Translations under genes and position numbers: made by a program
Part shown: positions 12,044 to 18,874 of the stretch, in pieces
How the letters are laid out: the number at the start of each line of letters is the position of its first letter
Numbering within the stretch: the stretch's first letter is position 1
Assembly: GCA_014859095.1 (NCBI GenBank)
Contig: JACUUV010000015.1
Coordinates: 1-56,465 of the forward strand
Direction: 5' to 3'
Source: Clostridia bacterium
GTDB lineage: Bacteria > Bacillota > Clostridia > Peptostreptococcales > Acidaminobacteraceae
DNA length: 56,465 nt
The notes under the pieces: generated by a model
Databases searched by the model: none
Seen by the model: only the letters and a program-made list of their open reading frames with translations
Told to the model about the DNA's origin: nothing

Positions 12044-13693
12044 TTATTTGGTTTTGGAGTGAACCGCATCCATAAAATCATAAAAATTTTCGTGAACTTT
12101 ATTCTTTTCATTCTTTCCGGTAATATCGGAAATCACATACAAATCGTAATTGCCATCCACAATGAAGCATTTCTTGCCGTTGTTTGTGCTGGCTTTGACA
12201 TATTGTATTCCGGAGAGTTCAAAAGGTTCATAAATAGGCTTTGAGCCTGGACCGTTGAAGTTTCCCCATACAAATGCTTTTCCGGTCTTCAAAATTGCAA
12301 GCACGAGGGAATCGCATATGTTAAGTGTCTCCACATCGCGGATTTTGAGGATTTCCTCCGGGAACAAAAATTCATTCATTCCTTTGGAACCCAATTGACC
12401 AAATGCATTATTGCCCGCTCCTACAACTTTACCGTTTTCAGTCACCACACACGAAAAACGATCACCGGCAGCAATTCTTTTAACATTTTTATAAAGCGTC
12501 ATCGTTGGCTCGTTGATACTACCCTTGAATCCGAGACCCAGTTGACCATAAGAATTGTCTCCCCATCCGATGACCGTACCGTCGTACCTGAGAGCAAGTC
12601 CGAAATTTGAGCCGCATGCGATCTGTTTAATGCCTGAGACACCTGGCAATTTTACTGGGTAAGGTGAATCGATATAATCGTCATTCATCAATTGTCCTTC
12701 AGTATTGTCACCCCAAACAAACACATCGCCATTTAGGTCAAGCGCTGCACCGAACCTTCGTCCAGCTTCCACTTGTTTGATGTTCTCAAGTCCCCAAATC
12801 TGCGTCAGAAGTTTGAGCGCGTTTTTATCACCTGATGCCAACTCGCCATGATGATTATTTCCTGCTGTAAAAACAGAACCATCATAAAAACGGAATATAT
12901 TGAACGATTCACCGCATGCGATTTCAGTCACACCGTCGTATAGATTACTGTATGTAAGCTTTGGAATCGGATTGAGTGTTCCGATTCCCAGTTGCCCAAA
13001 ATCATTTTTTCCATACGATAATGTTTTGCCGTTATTGTATGTCATGAAAAAAGAGCCATCATAGGCTTTTATCGCCCTAATGCCGGATTCTTCAGTCACT
13101 TTGACTTCCTTTTCAAAATAGTCGGACCAATTGCCATTTGTATCCTTCACTTTCAAACGAATCAAATAAATGCCCGGGTCATGAAAAACAGACATTTTAT
13201 TTTCCCATTTCTTCTCAATGATTTCACCATTTTCCGTGACACAACCGTTGAGATCATAAGTGATATGGGTCGTGGTCGTGAGGTTGTCCTCAGGTTTCAT
13301 GCTGAAATGAGCTATGGGTTTGACTTCACTGAGATCATGGATCCTTCTTAATGTCAAGTAAGTGAATTTACCGTTGATGTAAGAGTCTCCACCAATCTCA
13401 TTGATAAGCTCTTCTGCCTCTTCAGGCATCAGATTGAATACCGTCAGAAATTTGCCATCCATGGAAAGGTCATATTTTGAAAAATCATATGAATTGAAAT
13501 TCTCAATATAAGGTTCTAATTTTCCAATGGCTTTCGCGTATTCCTTGTTTGCTTCTTTGTATGCAATCACAGCGTTCAGTAGCATCTTATAATCCGAATA
13601 TACATGGATGGATTTTGCTTCCTTGCCCTTTGACAGCAAAGCGATCGCACCAAATATTGAACCGATTGTAATAAATATGCCTAAAAAAGTCAC
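12044..13693 (-). CDS. Membrane-anchored RCC1-repeat beta-propeller protein
   Basis: Residues 1-20 form an uncleaved membrane anchor (FLGIFITIGSIFGAIALL). About residues 125-200 look like a PKD/Ig-like domain (ISYDLNG-type core, GIYLIRLKVKDTNGNWSDYF). The C-terminal 340 residues are RCC1 repeats with the signature N..GQLG: KNDFGQLGIG, DNTEGQL, DNSYGQLGLG and NNAFGQLG, suggesting a seven-bladed propeller facing outside. The GTG start overlaps the folD stop (GTGA), with AAGGGG eight bases before, so it is translationally coupled to folD. Bacterial RCC1 proteins are of varied and mostly unknown function; a ligand-binding surface protein is plausible. Confidence 0.8.
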   Translation of the reverse strand: MTFLGIFITIGSIFGAIALLSKGKEAKSIHVYSDYKMLLNAVIAYKEANKEYAKAIGKLEPYIENFNSYDFSKYDLSMDGKFLTVFNLMPEEAEELINEIGGDSYINGKFTYLTLRRIHDLSEVKPIAHFSMKPEDNLTTTTHITYDLNGCVTENGEIIEKKWENKMSVFHDPGIYLIRLKVKDTNGNWSDYFEKEVKVTEESGIRAIKAYDGSFFMTYNNGKTLSYGKNDFGQLGIGTLNPIPKLTYSNLYDGVTEIACGESFNIFRFYDGSVFTAGNNHHGELASGDKNALKLLTQIWGLENIKQVEAGRRFGAALDLNGDVFVWGDNTEGQLMNDDYIDSPYPVKLPGVSGIKQIACGSNFGLALRYDGTVIGWGDNSYGQLGLGFKGSINEPTMTLYKNVKRIAAGDRFSCVVTENGKVVGAGNNAFGQLGSKGMNEFLFPEEILKIRDVETLNICDSLVLAILKTGKAFVWGNFNGPGSKPIYEPFELSGIQYVKASTNNGKKCFIVDGNYDLYVISDITGKNEKNKVHENFYDFMDAVHSKTK

Positions 13694-14520
13694 TGTTTGT
13701 CCCCTTTGTAATGTTCCAATAAATTCAATAAAAGCACTGCGTTGGTAACCGGTCCCACGCCGCCAGGTACCGGTGTGATCATGGCTGCCACGTCCTTGAC
13801 TGCTTCAAAATCCACGTCACCAACCAACTTGCCATCCACATCATTCATGCCGACATCGATTACAATCGCCTTGTCGCTGACCATATCAGCAGTAAGGAAA
13901 TTTGGAATACCAACTGCGACAATTATGATATCCGCATCCAAAGTGTGCGCTTTTAGATTTTGAGTATACGAATGGCACACCGTTACAGTCGCATTTTTGT
14001 GCATCAACATAACTGCCAACGGTTTTCCAACAATATTGCTTCTTCCGATGACGACGATATCCTTGCCTTCAAGCTCAATGTCCATTTCCTTGAAAATGGT
14101 CATAACCGCAAGTGGAGTACATGGTCTCGTGGCCTTTTCTCCCTTAAAGAGTAGACCTGCATTCATGGGATGAAAACCATCAAGGTCTTTTTTAGGATCT
14201 ATCGCCATGATCACACGAGCTTCATTGATGTGGTCTGGCAGTGGCATTTGAACGATAACTCCGTCAACGTTTGGATTTTCGTTGTTTGTCTTAATGATTC
14301 CCAGCAATTCTTCTTCAGAGATTGTAGTTTCATAGCGCCACAGCTCATATCCGAAATCCACACTCTTACAAGTTTTTTCAAGCATTCTGAGATAGGATTC
14401 CGCCGAAGGATTCTCCCCGAGCATAATGGCGACTACACTTGGTTTTCGAATGCAATCTTTACAACCGTTTCGTGCTCTTTCTTTAACTTTGAGCGCTATC
14501 GCTTTTCCGTCAATTATCAT
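13690..14520 (-). CDS. folD: FolD: methylene-THF dehydrogenase/methenyl-THF cyclohydrolase
   Basis: The family interconverts methylene-, methenyl- and formyl-tetrahydrofolate. Seen here are VQMPLP (90-95), KDLDGFHP (111-118), the NADP site VVIGRSNIVGKPLAVML and PVPGGVGPVT. The ATG at 14520 is fixed by GGAGGTGAAACT; the frame extends further upstream into potD, but without a signal. It is 276 aa, of normal length. In the YxxxK active-site segment Tyr43 is followed by Leu47, where the catalytic lysine is expected; the nearest lysine is Lys49. This could impair cyclohydrolase activity. It lies 14 bp behind potD and overlaps the RCC1 gene by four bases, so it may share the pot transcript. Confidence 0.85.
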   Translation of the reverse strand: MIIDGKAIALKVKERARNGCKDCIRKPSVVAIMLGENPSAESYLRMLEKTCKSVDFGYELWRYETTISEEELLGIIKTNNENPNVDGVIVQMPLPDHINEARVIMAIDPKKDLDGFHPMNAGLLFKGEKATRPCTPLAVMTIFKEMDIELEGKDIVVIGRSNIVGKPLAVMLMHKNATVTVCHSYTQNLKAHTLDADIIIVAVGIPNFLTADMVSDKAIVIDVGMNDVDGKLVGDVDFEAVKDVAAMITPVPGGVGPVTNAVLLLNLLEHYKGDKQ

Positions 14521-14533
14521 AGTTTCACCTCCA

Positions 14534-15571
14534 TTAGTTGGCTTTGACTTCTGTCCAAATTCTATCGTATTCCAAAATAAAATCACCTGGATCATTGAAA
14601 ATTTCATAGTTTTCAATCCACTCATCCAATGGGTAAGCGTAAGTCGTTCCCATAAGGTCAGGATCAATCAGCTTTAAAGTCTCACTGTTGACTGTAGAAT
14701 ATCCCACGTAATCAGCGTTCAAGAATCCGATGTCGGATCTGCATAGAAAATCAATGAATTGATGCGCCGCATCGATGTTTTTTGCACCTTTTGGAATGAC
14801 AATATTGTCAAACCATTTGTTGGAGCCTTCAACCGGGAGCACATATTCAAATTCATCATACTCTTGAATCACTGCACTGGCTTCACCTGACCATACGACT
14901 GCCATTGCAGCTTCTCCGCTGATCAACATGTCTTTTACATTGTCTCCGACATAGGCAAGTACCATAGGCTTTTGTTCAATCAAAAGTTGTTTGGCCTCCT
15001 CTAATTCATCGAGATTCTTGGTATTCATTGAATACCCAAGTTTCTTTAGAGCAACCATGATTGAATCCCTTTGAGAGTCCATCATCGTGAATTGTCCAGC
15101 ATATTTATCATCCCAAAGCACATCCCAAGATTGGATTGGTTCATCGATCAACTCAGTGTTGTAGATGATACCGACGGTTCCCCAAAAATAAGGAACAGAA
15201 TAGGCGTTATCAGGATCAAAGGATAGATTCTTGAAATCCTCATCGATATTAATGTAGTTGGGAATTTTGCTCAAATCTATTTTTTCAAGCATTTCTTCAC
15301 GAATCATTTTCTCGATCATATATTCTGAAGGAATTGCCAAATCATACTTTGTCCCACCTTTTTTTATCTTGGTGTACATTTCCTCATTTGTTGCATAAGT
15401 CTCATAATTGATTTTAATTCCGGTTTCCTCTTCAAACATCTCAAAGATGTCCTCATCAATGTAGTCACCCCAATTGTAAACATTGAGAACAACTTTGTCC
15501 TCTTGGGCGCAAGCTGTAACCAAAACGGTTGTCAAAACCATTACCAAAACGAATATAATTATTTTTTTCAT
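14534..15571 (-). CDS. potD: Spermidine/putrescine-binding lipoprotein PotD
   Basis: This is the extracytoplasmic polyamine receptor of the PotABCD ABC importer. A lipoprotein signal ends in LVTACAQ, with Cys21 as the lipidation site. The mature protein starts with VLNVYNWGDYIDEDIFEMF, the classical PotD/PotF opening, and SGEAAMAVVWSGEA lies in the ligand region. The length of 345 aa is normal. GGAGAGGAG precedes the ATG. It is the last transport gene of the operon. Whether spermidine or putrescine is preferred cannot be judged by eye. Confidence 0.92.
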   Translation of the reverse strand: MKKIIIFVLVMVLTTVLVTACAQEDKVVLNVYNWGDYIDEDIFEMFEEETGIKINYETYATNEEMYTKIKKGGTKYDLAIPSEYMIEKMIREEMLEKIDLSKIPNYINIDEDFKNLSFDPDNAYSVPYFWGTVGIIYNTELIDEPIQSWDVLWDDKYAGQFTMMDSQRDSIMVALKKLGYSMNTKNLDELEEAKQLLIEQKPMVLAYVGDNVKDMLISGEAAMAVVWSGEASAVIQEYDEFEYVLPVEGSNKWFDNIVIPKGAKNIDAAHQFIDFLCRSDIGFLNADYVGYSTVNSETLKLIDPDLMGTTYAYPLDEWIENYEIFNDPGDFILEYDRIWTEVKAN

Positions 15572-15590
15572 AAGTTTCTCCTCTCCAAGG

Positions 15591-16364
15591 TTATATATCT
15601 TCTATCTTTGTTCTCTTGTTAATGATCAGCAGCAAAATCAGCACAGATGTGAACATCAATGTGGATAAGGCGTTAATTTCTGGTTTGATGCCTCTTCTAG
15701 CCATCGAGTAAATGGCAATAGAAAGATTGCTGACACCACTTCCCGTCGTGAAAAAACTGATGACGAAATCATCAATGGAAAGCGTGAATGCGATAAGTCC
15801 ACCGGTAATGATTCCGGGTTTGATCTCAGGCAATATGACATTCTTGAAAGCGTACCACGGTGTGGCACCAAGATCCATCGCAGCTTCAAGCATTTCACCT
15901 GGCATCTGCTTGAATTTGGGAAGCACTGAAAGCACCACATAAGGAACACTGAAAGTTATATGGGCTATGATCATAGTCATAAGACCAAGCTCCATTTTCA
16001 TGGCGACGAACAGTGTCATCAGAGAAACACCCGTAACTATGTCTGGATTGAGCAACGGAATGGAGTTTATGTTGAGCACTAGTTTCTGTTTCCATGCCCT
16101 CATGTAAAAAATTCCAAACGCCGCAAAAGTGCCAATAACAGTCGCTGAAATCGATGAGATGACAGCAACCAATACTGTATAATATAAAGATTTCATGATA
16201 TATCGGTTCTGAAATAGGCTGCGGTACCAGTCCAGAGTAAACCCTTCCCATTTTGCGGTGGATTTGGAATCGTTGAATGAAAATACAATCAAAACGACAA
16301 TCGGCGCATATAAAAATGTGAAAATCAGCAAAGTATAAAATCTCTTGATCCACTTGTTCACCAT
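15591..16364 (-). CDS. potC: Spermidine/putrescine ABC transporter permease PotC
   Basis: This inner-membrane permease subunit has six predicted membrane segments. The cytoplasmic EAA loop reads EAAMDLGATPWYAFKNVILPE and contacts the PotA ATPase. FSFNDSKSTAKWEGFTLDWY near the N-terminus is typical of PotC/PotI. The start ATG has GAAGGGGG upstream and overlaps the end of potB by seven bases. The length of 257 aa is normal. Confidence 0.92.
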   Translation of the reverse strand: MVNKWIKRFYTLLIFTFLYAPIVVLIVFSFNDSKSTAKWEGFTLDWYRSLFQNRYIMKSLYYTVLVAVISSISATVIGTFAAFGIFYMRAWKQKLVLNINSIPLLNPDIVTGVSLMTLFVAMKMELGLMTMIIAHITFSVPYVVLSVLPKFKQMPGEMLEAAMDLGATPWYAFKNVILPEIKPGIITGGLIAFTLSIDDFVISFFTTGSGVSNLSIAIYSMARRGIKPEINALSTLMFTSVLILLLIINKRTKIEDI

Positions 16365-17197
16365 AGATTCACACCCCCTTCTTCGGGGTTGTTACCACTG
16401 AGATGGTTCATTACCGCCATAGTTGCAAGTATAAGAAACATCAGAATAATTGAAATGGCCGATCCGAAGAACCAGTCATTGACAACCAGAAACTGTTGTT
16501 CAATGAGATTTCCAATCAACATGTACTGTCCACCGTAAAGCAGGTTGGATATTACGAATGTGCTCACAGCAGGCATGAAAACCATTGAAGTTCCCGACAC
16601 GACACCGGGCAATGAAAGTGGAAAAACAACTTTTCTGAACACATTGTACTTATTCCCACCCAAATCCTCTGCGGCTTCTATGAGACTTTGATCCATTCTG
16701 GATAGCACCGTATAGATCGGGAGCACCATAAATGGCAGAAAGTTATAAACCATTCCCAGTAGCACAGCGCCTTCGGAGTACAAAAATGTCATCTGAGGCA
16801 ATCCAAAAAACATCAATATCTTATTCAAGATACCGTTTTTTCCTAATATGGTCATCCAAGCATAGGTCCTGAGCAAAAAATTCATCCACATGGGGACAAC
16901 AAAAAGCATTACTGCTATTGTGCGATATCTTGAGTTCATTTTGGCAAGGATCATCGCCATTGGATATCCAATCAAAAGACAGATGGCCGTTGCTTCAAGT
17001 GCAATTTTTATCGAGCGTGTCCATACCGCTATATAAACCGGTTCAAACACACGAGCAAAATTGATGGCTGTCAAATAATACTCACCCGTCTCAGCATCTG
17101 TTCGAACCAAACTGAAGAACCCAATCATTAGAATAGGAATCAGAATGAATAGTACAATCCATACTAAATATGGGCCGGAAGCAATACGTTTAAGCAC
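16358..17197 (-). CDS. potB: Spermidine/putrescine ABC transporter permease PotB
   Basis: This is the second permease subunit, with six predicted membrane helices. The EAA loop is EAAEDLGGNKYNVFRKVVFPL. Family-typical FLLRTYAWMTILG and MVYNFLPFMVLPIY stretches are present. The start is placed at GTG 17197: AAGGAGG lies six bases upstream, and the start falls two bases after the potA stop codon. An in-frame ATG at 17230 lies inside potA and lacks a ribosome binding site. The resulting 279 aa matches known PotB proteins. Confidence 0.92.
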   Translation of the reverse strand: MLKRIASGPYLVWIVLFILIPILMIGFFSLVRTDAETGEYYLTAINFARVFEPVYIAVWTRSIKIALEATAICLLIGYPMAMILAKMNSRYRTIAVMLFVVPMWMNFLLRTYAWMTILGKNGILNKILMFFGLPQMTFLYSEGAVLLGMVYNFLPFMVLPIYTVLSRMDQSLIEAAEDLGGNKYNVFRKVVFPLSLPGVVSGTSMVFMPAVSTFVISNLLYGGQYMLIGNLIEQQFLVVNDWFFGSAISIILMFLILATMAVMNHLSGNNPEEGGVNLW

Positions 17198-17198
17198 A

Positions 17199-18239
17199 TT
17201 ACGCCTCCTTTTCCATGATATGGATATCATCAGGATCTATGCGGATACCAACAGCAACCCCTTCATCCACCTTATCGGTGCTATGGACAATCCAGTCCCT
17301 TGTGGATTCCTTGATCGACATTTCATAGTGGACACCTTTGAATACAACTGATTTCACTATTCCGTCGAGTTGTCCCTCACCGACTCCTAAAAGTTTCACA
17401 TCTTCAGGTCTTATGACCACATCAACTTCCTGTTCAGTATCAAACCCGGAGTCCACACACGTAAAATCAAGCTCTGCAAAGCGCACAAGATAATCCTTGA
17501 CCATGATCCCATCATAGATGTTGCTTTCTCCTATGAAATCCGCTACGAACCTATTTTCAGGTTCATTGTAAATATCTGTGGGCGACCCAATCTGTTGAAT
17601 TTCTCCATGGTTCATAATGATGATCTTATCGGACATGGTCAGAGCTTCTTCTTGATCATGCGTGACGTAGACAAAAGTGATTCCTAGTTCTCTTTGCATG
17701 TTTTTTAGTTCAAGCTGCATTTCTTTCCTGAGTTTGAGGTCAAGCGCCCCAAGTGGCTCATCAAGAAGCAAGACTTTCGGTTCATTGACGAGTGCTCGTG
17801 CTATGGCGATTCTTTGTTGTTGACCACCTGAAAGCGAATTGATTTTTCTGTGCTCAAACCCGGACAAATTGACCAGTTCCAAAATCTTTGAAACTTTGGA
17901 GGCAATTTCTTTTTCACTATTCTTCTTGATTCTTAACCCAAACGCCACATTTTCATAGATATTCATGTGTGGAAACAAAGCATACTTTTGAAAGACTGTA
18001 TTGATTTGTCTCAGATATGGCGGTGTATCAGTGATATCATTGCCTTCAAAATAGATGGTTCCAGTCGTCGGTCTCTCAAATCCGGCAATCATTCTGAGTG
18101 TGGTCGTTTTTCCGCAACCACTTGGTCCTAGAATTGTTAAAAATTGATTCTTTTTAACCCAAAAATCAATGTTTTTAACAACAGGGACACCATTATATTC
18201 TTTTGTAATGTTTATGCCTTTTACTATTTTATCACTCAA
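17199..18239 (-). CDS. potA: Spermidine/putrescine ABC transporter ATPase PotA
   Basis: This is the energising ATPase. Walker A is GPSGCGKTT, the Q-loop [11 protein letters not shown], the signature LSGGQQQR, Walker [13 protein letters not shown] and the switch VTHD. A TOBE domain follows from about residue 270 ([13 protein letters not shown]). The start is taken as TTG 18239, six bases after GGAGG; the frame is open a few codons further to another TTG at 18251 that overlaps the ribosome binding site. The result is 346 aa. It is the first transport gene after the cupin regulator, with a 15-bp gap. Confidence 0.93.
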
Positions 18240-18254
18240 TAGTGCCTCCAAGAA

Positions 18255-18794
18255 CTAAAAATTGGGTGGCGTACCAACCAATAAAATTTTTGCTTCTCTT
18301 TTGCCTTTGTTGATGATCTCATGGCTCTTATTAGCCTTGTAATAAATGGAGTCACCAGCCTTGGCCACGTATTTTTTACCACCCAGTCTAACCACAACCG
18401 AACCTGAAATCACAAATCCAAATTCTTCCCCTTCGTGTGGGTCATGGGCATCATAAGCACCATTAGGCGCCAAAGTCAACATGATCGGTTCCATCATATT
18501 CTTCTGTGCATTTGGGATGATCCACTCCAAATTATAACCTGTGATTTCATCTTCTTTCTCAAAAAAATCTTCTGGCCTAAACACGATTTTTTCTTCAACG
18601 GTCTCACTGAAGAAGGCTTGTAGATTTGTTCCCAGACTTTCGAGTATGTCGACCAAACTTGCAATGGAAGGTGATGTCATATCCCTTTCCAATTGTGATA
18701 TGAACCCTTTCGACAATTCGCAACGATCTGCCAATTCTTCTTGAGTGAGGTTGTTTTCAAGTCTTAATCTTTTTATTTTTTCACCAATATTCAC
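18255..18794 (-). CDS. XRE-family HTH regulator with cupin domain (PuuR-like), pot operon
   Basis: The protein has an N-terminal helix-turn-helix (NLTQEELADRCELSKGFISQ) and a C-terminal cupin barrel (EPIMLTLAPNG, DPHEGEEFGFVISG, AKAGDSIYYKANKSH). This architecture is that of PuuR, a putrescine-responsive repressor. It is the first gene of the potABCD operon, so sensing polyamine and autoregulating the operon is a natural inference. The start is GTG 18794, giving (V)NIGEKIKRLR, with AAGGAG eight bases before; an ATG at 18800 sits too close to that site. The cupin has His and Glu residues that could bind a metal. The effector is not proven. Confidence 0.85.
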   Translation of the reverse strand: MNIGEKIKRLRLENNLTQEELADRCELSKGFISQLERDMTSPSIASLVDILESLGTNLQAFFSETVEEKIVFRPEDFFEKEDEITGYNLEWIIPNAQKNMMEPIMLTLAPNGAYDAHDPHEGEEFGFVISGSVVVRLGGKKYVAKAGDSIYYKANKSHEIINKGKREAKILLVGTPPNF

Positions 18795-18845
18795 AACCAT
18801 TTCTCCTTTTTTGAGTTTATTATTACTAAACTTTTCATTCGATTT

Positions 18846-18874
18846 ATTATACTTTATCACCTATGTACAGTCAA
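18846..18874 (-). promoter_or_regulatory. Strong sigma-A promoter of the regulator-potABCD operon
   Basis: On the minus strand TTGACT (18869-18874) and a perfect TATAAT (18846-18851) are separated by 17 bp. It lies about 50 bp ahead of the cupin regulator and just after the cheV terminator. No perfect inverted repeat for an operator is obvious around it. Confidence 0.85.

Follow-up and report, generated by a model that had tools for sequence, protein, structure and literature searches.

FolD enzymes that act as both dehydrogenase and cyclohydrolase carry a catalytic lysine in the motif Tyr-x3-Lys. In a stretch of 56,465 nucleotides from a Clostridia bacterium of the Acidaminobacteraceae (GenBank assembly GCA_014859095.1, contig JACUUV010000015.1; here termed the window, contig C45 of a 2.98-Mb genome in 134 contigs that is 98.97% complete), the predicted FolD has leucine at this position. 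This raises the question of whether the enzyme retains both activities and, if not, which protein converts methenyl- to 10-formyl-tetrahydrofolate (THF). The explanation we favor, with a rough probability of 0.55 for its two parts as a whole, is that this FolD is a dehydrogenase only and that a PF04961 protein encoded in a histidine-degradation cluster serves as the cyclohydrolase. The first part, a 5,10-methylene-THF dehydrogenase lacking cyclohydrolase activity, is very probable on sequence grounds because leucine replaces the general acid/base lysine. The second, that the methenyl-to-10-formyl step would be carried by the histidine-cluster cyclodeaminase, the only PF04961 protein of the genome, stands at about even odds.

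Tyr43, Leu47, Lys49, and Lys52, as read in the original prediction, were confirmed in the translated open reading frame. When the protein is aligned to five FolDs of known structure, Escherichia coli FolD (1b0a) among them, Leu47 falls on the catalytic lysine in ungapped surroundings, and Lys49 pairs with E. coli Lys56, so that an alignment with Lys49 at the catalytic position was not obtained. The Tyr-x3-Lys lysine of bifunctional FolDs is thus absent from this protein. The original reading of the other hallmarks as intact proved correct: the tyrosine, glutamine, and aspartate residues named in the literature correspond to Tyr43, Gln91, and Asp114, all of which are kept along with the dehydrogenase motifs. 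The protein matches PF02882 (THF_DHG_CYH_C) with 222.7 bits (Pfam cut-off 27). An AlphaFold2 model (mean predicted local distance difference test score 94.2) superimposes on 1b0a with Z 38.1 and a root-mean-square deviation of 1.6 Å over 276 residues, displaying the two-domain FolD fold along its whole length, and the first 38 entries listed among its structure matches are all FolD/MTHFD proteins (Z 35.7–39.9). Tyr43 and Leu47 lie one turn apart on helix 38–53 of the model; the placement of Leu47 is based on the ungapped alignment and this helix and not on modeled atom positions. Lys49 was also considered as a stand-in catalytic lysine and was excluded, since E. coli has a lysine there beside Lys54 and the position is occupied by Arg in five of the 15 sequences of the window clade (Lys in ten).

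In these 15 sequences, position 47 is Leu (10), Ile (4), or Met (1). Because none of them has lysine, a sequencing error as the source of Leu47 is very unlikely. The window genome has its kin in Fusibacter, and its FolD shares 78% identity with the enzyme of Fusibacter tunisiensis DSM 24436. A DNA scan of named relatives yielded 107 loci, and among the best 80 of these the position is Lys in 73, Leu in three, Ile in three, and a gap in one, with four of the six Leu/Ile sequences from the window's own family. Across 149 FolDs of the window's order (141 of 262 matches, the unread ones being mostly those least similar to the window FolD, plus eight from family genomes less than 90% complete), we counted Ala 74, Lys 31, Ile 24, Leu 10, Val 9, and Met 1. 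Lack of the lysine is the exception among named relatives as a whole and the norm within the order.

FolD trees computed after removal of columns 47 and 91, and without inferring the root or the direction of change, display six changes between lysine and lysine-less states (235 sequences, FastTree) or seven (99 sequences, IQ-TREE quick mode); one gapped sequence, L090, was counted as lysine-less in both trees, so that one change may be spurious. L090 (G041:C1:217663-218481), a match to FolD, contains one in-frame TAA, and its genome has a second FolD match. Loss of the lysine is the natural reading of the direction, because lysine is the rule elsewhere. The window clade forms a lysine-less lineage apart from a deep lysine-less group of 124 sequences (class sample described below added), in which the lysine position is Ala in 92 and FolD adjoins PF04961 and Fhs at 22 loci.

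A second position changes together with the lysine. According to the relevant part of PMC3368264, Val280 is one of the hydrophobic residues around Lys56 of the human enzyme; it was mapped by hand to residue 260. Of 82 lysine-type sequences, 75 have Ile or Val at this position and the other seven have Arg. In lysine-less sequences the residue is Asn in all 15 of the window clade, Thr, Ser, or Asn in 124/124 of the deep group, and polar in six of 14 others. Residue 258 is Met in 79/82 lysine-type sequences and Val in 15/15 of the window clade and 112/124 of the deep group. Shared ancestry accounts for part of these counts. Mutations of the lysine itself have been described in E. coli, where, in the sections of PMC5688156 on these mutants, FolD K54N has undetectable cyclohydrolase and about 19% dehydrogenase activity, and a K54-R55 deletion also lacks detectable cyclohydrolase. 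Taken together, the loss of the lysine, its conservation in the clade, Asn260, the E. coli mutants, and the association with PF04961 described below support a monofunctional dehydrogenase, as originally proposed; a silkworm mutant, discussed further on, speaks against it.

A search of the genome for a second folD or an fchA was part of the original proposal. We observed one FolD over cut-off, one PF04961 protein, and one Fhs, encoded on three contigs. A second PF02882 match of 19.8 bits, below cut-off, lies in an open reading frame that looks like a malic enzyme on inspection and was rejected. The PF04961 protein (221.8 bits, cut-off 24.5; G000:C35:31147-31686) is encoded in a row consisting of a glutamate formimidoyltransferase gene (FTCD_N; TIGR02024, 419 bits, cut-off 221.25), hutI (TIGR01224, 454.4 bits, cut-off 298.15), the PF04961 gene, and a DegV gene. 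It is thus located in a histidine-degradation cluster and is not linked to fhs or folD; an fhs-linked FchA was not found by the PF04961 search of this nearly complete genome. In trees, the protein groups with histidine-linked proteins outside the fhs-linked clade. The latter contains the nearest sequences to Methylobacterium extorquens FchA, while rat FTCD is placed on the side of the histidine-linked proteins, on a long branch. Residue 31 is Ser in this protein, in 51 of 56 sequences that are not fhs-linked (itself included), and in rat FTCD, as opposed to Gly (PGGGG) in all 22 fhs-linked sequences and in M. extorquens FchA. At 22 further PF04961 loci it is Gly in 3/3 fhs-linked proteins and otherwise Ser (16) or Ala (2), with one unread. 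The residue after PGGG, Gly in all 25 fhs-linked sequences, is a possible marker to tell FchA from cyclodeaminase; the pattern is unpublished. The score of the NCBIfam FchA equivalog model (cut-off 275) was rejected as a discriminator since it does not separate the kinds: 184.3 bits for the genome's protein, 203.7 and 207.2 for two fhs-linked proteins, and 190–217 for four histidine-linked relatives. Based on its neighbors, its position in the tree, and Ser31, we assign the PF04961 protein to the histidine-cluster (cyclodeaminase) type and not to the fhs-linked type. The predicted need for a separate FchA is therefore supported by the presence of one PF04961 protein, but not by its type or its location. 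It is the only candidate seen; Mch, other cyclohydrolase families, and MTHFS were not searched for.

The route that we infer for histidine carbon would lead from formimino-glutamate via 5-formimino-THF and methenyl-THF to 10-formyl-THF, from which Fhs would release formate with formation of ATP. In the window genome, Fhs is encoded downstream of the urocanate hydratase (HutU) gene with a regulator gene in between (L324 25-6654, G000:C100). The same order occurs in G018 and G024, and HutU directly adjoins Fhs in G003 and G034 (HutU-Fhs loci of relatives: L086, L411, L412, and L413). This proximity suggests that Fhs serves histidine fermentation.

The relation between the lysine and PF04961 was determined in an evenly drawn sample of 108 genomes of the class, each at least 95% complete. 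Of these, 103 had a FolD and 38 a PF04961 match above cut-off; 89 of the 103 FolDs were read, all 14 unread ones being from PF04961-negative genomes, and a lysine-type genome with a sub-cut-off PF04961 match (G355) was counted as negative. All 38 PF04961-positive genomes have a lysine-less FolD (Ala 19, Ile 7, Leu 5, Val 4, and Gln 3), and all 51 PF04961-negative genomes that were read have lysine (Fisher's exact test, P = 5e-26, relatedness ignored). Seven well-completed genomes of the class have no FolD match (G258, G288, G332, G347, G350, G149, and G255), five of them being 0.8–1.4 Mb in size; G149 and G255 have no PF04961 match either. Within the window's order the rule is one-way only. 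Among the genomes read there, PF04961 occurs in 113 of the 116 that have only lysine-less FolDs and in 27 of the 30 of lysine type; with either kind of PF04961 counted, it occurs in 240 of 247 genomes. Since it is near-universal in the order, we rejected the association inside this group as uninformative.

Inspection of the PF04961 neighbors revealed that the combination seen in the window genome is widespread. A single histidine- or FTCD_N-linked PF04961 gene was found in 46 genomes, in which FolD is lysine-less in 30, spanning eight family codes, has lysine in 14, and is unread in two. Genomes with the deep type of FolD are among those with no other kind of PF04961 (G298, G320, G338, and G357). 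An fhs-linked PF04961 gene occurs in 24 genomes, with a lysine-less FolD in 19/19 read and no FolD read in five; of these, lysine-less G013, G014, G016, and G017 have an extra histidine-linked copy and G049 an extra FTCD_N-linked copy. In seven further lysine-less genomes of the class (G272, G279, G286, G305, G309, G327, and G340) the single PF04961 gene has none of these neighbors within 1.5 kb, and in lysine-less G345 the gene was unmatched in its locus. A lysine-less FolD accompanied only by a histidine-linked PF04961 protein is thus a recurrent state and not a quirk of the window genome, and it is chiefly this recurrence that points to the histidine-linked protein being able to carry out the cyclohydrolase reaction.

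Several results, given in this and the two following paragraphs, weigh against the favored reading. A phylogeny-corrected paired comparison of lysine and PF04961 was not significant, with too few pairs among some six to seven changes. Fourteen genomes combine a lysine-type FolD with a single histidine- or FTCD_N-linked PF04961 protein. No column separates, at 80%, the histidine-linked PF04961 proteins of lysine-less (27 sequences) from those of lysine-type genomes (18 sequences) in a comparison from which nine of 78 sequences (long branches or additional copies) had been removed in advance, and there is accordingly no sign of adaptation of the histidine-linked proteins to a cyclohydrolase role. 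The NCBIfam FolD models that match the window FolD carry the name 'bifunctional', and a review on Fusobacterium nucleatum, in its passage on this step, assigns it to a bifunctional FolD despite a clustered cyclodeaminase (PMC12288474). Our literature searches, which covered few subscription journals, found no study of a Fusibacter FolD and no demonstration of a histidine-linked cyclodeaminase acting as a cyclohydrolase.

The chief rival, which we consider unlikely, also assumes a monofunctional FolD but dispenses with a cyclohydrolase: 10-formyl-THF would be made from formate by the single Fhs of the genome, and methenyl-THF would hydrolyze spontaneously. The E. coli K54N strain survives, which its authors ascribe to spontaneous turnover or hydrolysis, but it grows very slowly (PMC5688156, in the section on this strain). 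No convincing PF04961 match was obtained in lysine-less G036 (95% complete), G024 (92%), and G002 (77%), including by searches with the window genome's own PF04961 protein, and G024 and G036 have Fhs. The absence from G024, which has HutU, is possibly an assembly gap. Unless its assembly is incomplete, G036 is a genuine counter-example, a cell lacking the PF04961 family. In G036, a FolD lacking both the lysine and the glutamine adjoins Fhs (L073; G036:C23:79916-82518). Against a route without an enzyme stand the occurrence of PF04961 in 38/38 lysine-less genomes of the class sample and 113/116 in the order, as well as the proximity of HutU to Fhs, which suggests a real flux from methenyl- to formyl-THF.

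Less likely still, and in our view improbable, is that FolD has remained bifunctional, with Tyr43, Gln91, Lys49, or water supporting the cyclohydrolase reaction without the lysine. Silkworm (Bombyx) MTHFD K53A retains both activities, with a cyclohydrolase kcat/Km of 0.097 compared to 0.13, in the kinetic data of PMC6443876. Tyr43, Gln91, and Asp114 are intact in the window FolD, unlike in the deep group, in which Gln91 is replaced in all 124 sequences (Phe 104, Leu 15, and Met 5). On the other hand, both E. coli lesions abolish detectable cyclohydrolase activity, Lys49 is the equivalent of E. coli Lys56 and no replacement for Lys54, given that Arg is found there in a third of the clade, and the hydrophobic neighbor of the lysine has turned into Asn. 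The original premise that cyclohydrolase activity requires the lysine thus agrees with E. coli and disagrees with silkworm. We give more weight to the E. coli mutants because they concern a bacterial enzyme, because two separate lesions at the lysine give the same outcome, and because growth of the K54N strain is very slow, though the E. coli and silkworm results conflict.

It is very improbable that the window FolD is a specialized or moonlighting member of a polyamine-type transport operon instead of a general folate enzyme: the PotD-folD pair occurs in 15/15 clade loci and PotD-folD-RCC1 in 14/15 (window counted), compared to Pot- or RCC1-type neighbors in none of six lysine-type folD loci examined from the same family, but no second FolD match occurs in the window genome or in 12 of the 14 genomes sharing the complete set (G016 and G017 do have one), and its dehydrogenase motifs are intact.

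The genes at 12044-18860 are arranged in the order HTH-cupin (helix-turn-helix plus cupin) regulator, PotA, PotB, PotC, PotD, FolD, and RCC1-like protein (Table 1). The regulator is presumably PuuR-like. The ATG start of folD at 14520 is preceded by GGAGGTGA, a clear ribosome-binding site, and its TGA stop lies at 13692-13690. The GTG start of the RCC1-like gene overlaps this stop by four bases (GTGA, 13690-13693), which suggests translational coupling. At the fifteenth clade locus, in G037, an RCC1-like match was not found, while PotD is present. A description of folD in such a Pot-operon setting, with PotABCD, the HTH-cupin regulator, and RCC1-repeat genes, was not found in our literature searches, which were aimed elsewhere.

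Table 1. Features of the folD region, numbered from the first nucleotide of the window.
Feature	Position	Strand	Remarks
RCC1-repeat protein	12044..13693	-	adjoins folD in 14/15 clade loci including the window; not found at G037
folD, 276 amino acids, complete open reading frame	13690..14520	-	Tyr43-x3-Leu47 replacing Tyr-x3-Lys; Gln91 and Asp114 retained
Asn260 codon	13741..13743	-	corresponds to human Val280, a neighbor of the lysine
Leu47 codon CTT	14380..14382	-	occupies the place of the catalytic lysine (Lys54 in E. coli, Lys56 in human)
PotD-like solute-binding protein	14534..15571	-	stop 13 bases ahead of the folD start; adjoins folD in 15/15 clade loci including the window
PotC-like permease	15591..16364	-	neighbor gene annotation
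PotB-like permease	16358..17230	-	neighbor gene annotation
PotA-like ATP-binding protein	17199..18251	-	neighbor gene annotation
HTH plus cupin regulator	18255..18860	-	neighbor gene annotation

Aluri et al. are said to have demonstrated in 2016 that Clostridium perfringens FolD, annotated as bifunctional, is a monofunctional dehydrogenase in a cell with a separate FchA and Fhs, its residue at the lysine position reportedly being Gln. Both this enzyme, as reported, and the window FolD lack the catalytic lysine, and both genomes encode a PF04961 protein; they differ in Gln versus Leu at the position and in the histidine linkage of the window genome's PF04961. Gln was found in three genomes of family f43 in the class sample. 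A monofunctional FolD with a separate cyclohydrolase would thus be of a kind reportedly known from Clostridium, of which a histidine-linked substitute is the proposed variant. In Clostridium autoethanogenum, a separate FchA has locus numbers next to those of Fhs and FolD, as far as the gene list of PMC9040625 goes; this acetogen gene set is linked, whereas the window genome carries folD, fhs, and PF04961 on three contigs. E. coli FolD has the same fold and the same Tyr, Gln, and Asp residues as the window FolD at 43% identity, but it has the lysine and, according to PMC5688156, both activities. Yeast NAD-dependent MTD1 (1edz) also shares the fold (Z 28.9), though it is distant (28% identity) and eukaryotic. 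It is reportedly a monofunctional dehydrogenase. A passage in PMC11064299 words its activity as 'only cyclohydrolase' yet describes the dehydrogenase step. The C-terminal cyclodeaminase domain of rat FTCD (1tt9) has Ser31 in common with the genome's PF04961 protein; the rat protein is fused, whereas the bacterial one is a separate polypeptide encoded alongside FTCD_N and HutI.

Tentatively, and at somewhat less than even odds, we propose that in Fusibacter and many other Clostridia the cyclodeaminase of the histidine pathway doubles as a cyclohydrolase, that its takeover of the second folate step made repeated losses of the FolD lysine possible, and that a large part of the FolDs labeled bifunctional accordingly have dehydrogenase activity alone. 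Metabolic models relying on this label would assign to lysine-less FolDs a reaction that is probably impossible for them. If the pattern holds, a single residue of FolD would predict dependence on PF04961. Should the histidine-linked protein indeed work as a cyclohydrolase, an enzyme of amino acid breakdown would join central folate metabolism, and histidine fermentation would be tied to the formation of formate and ATP.

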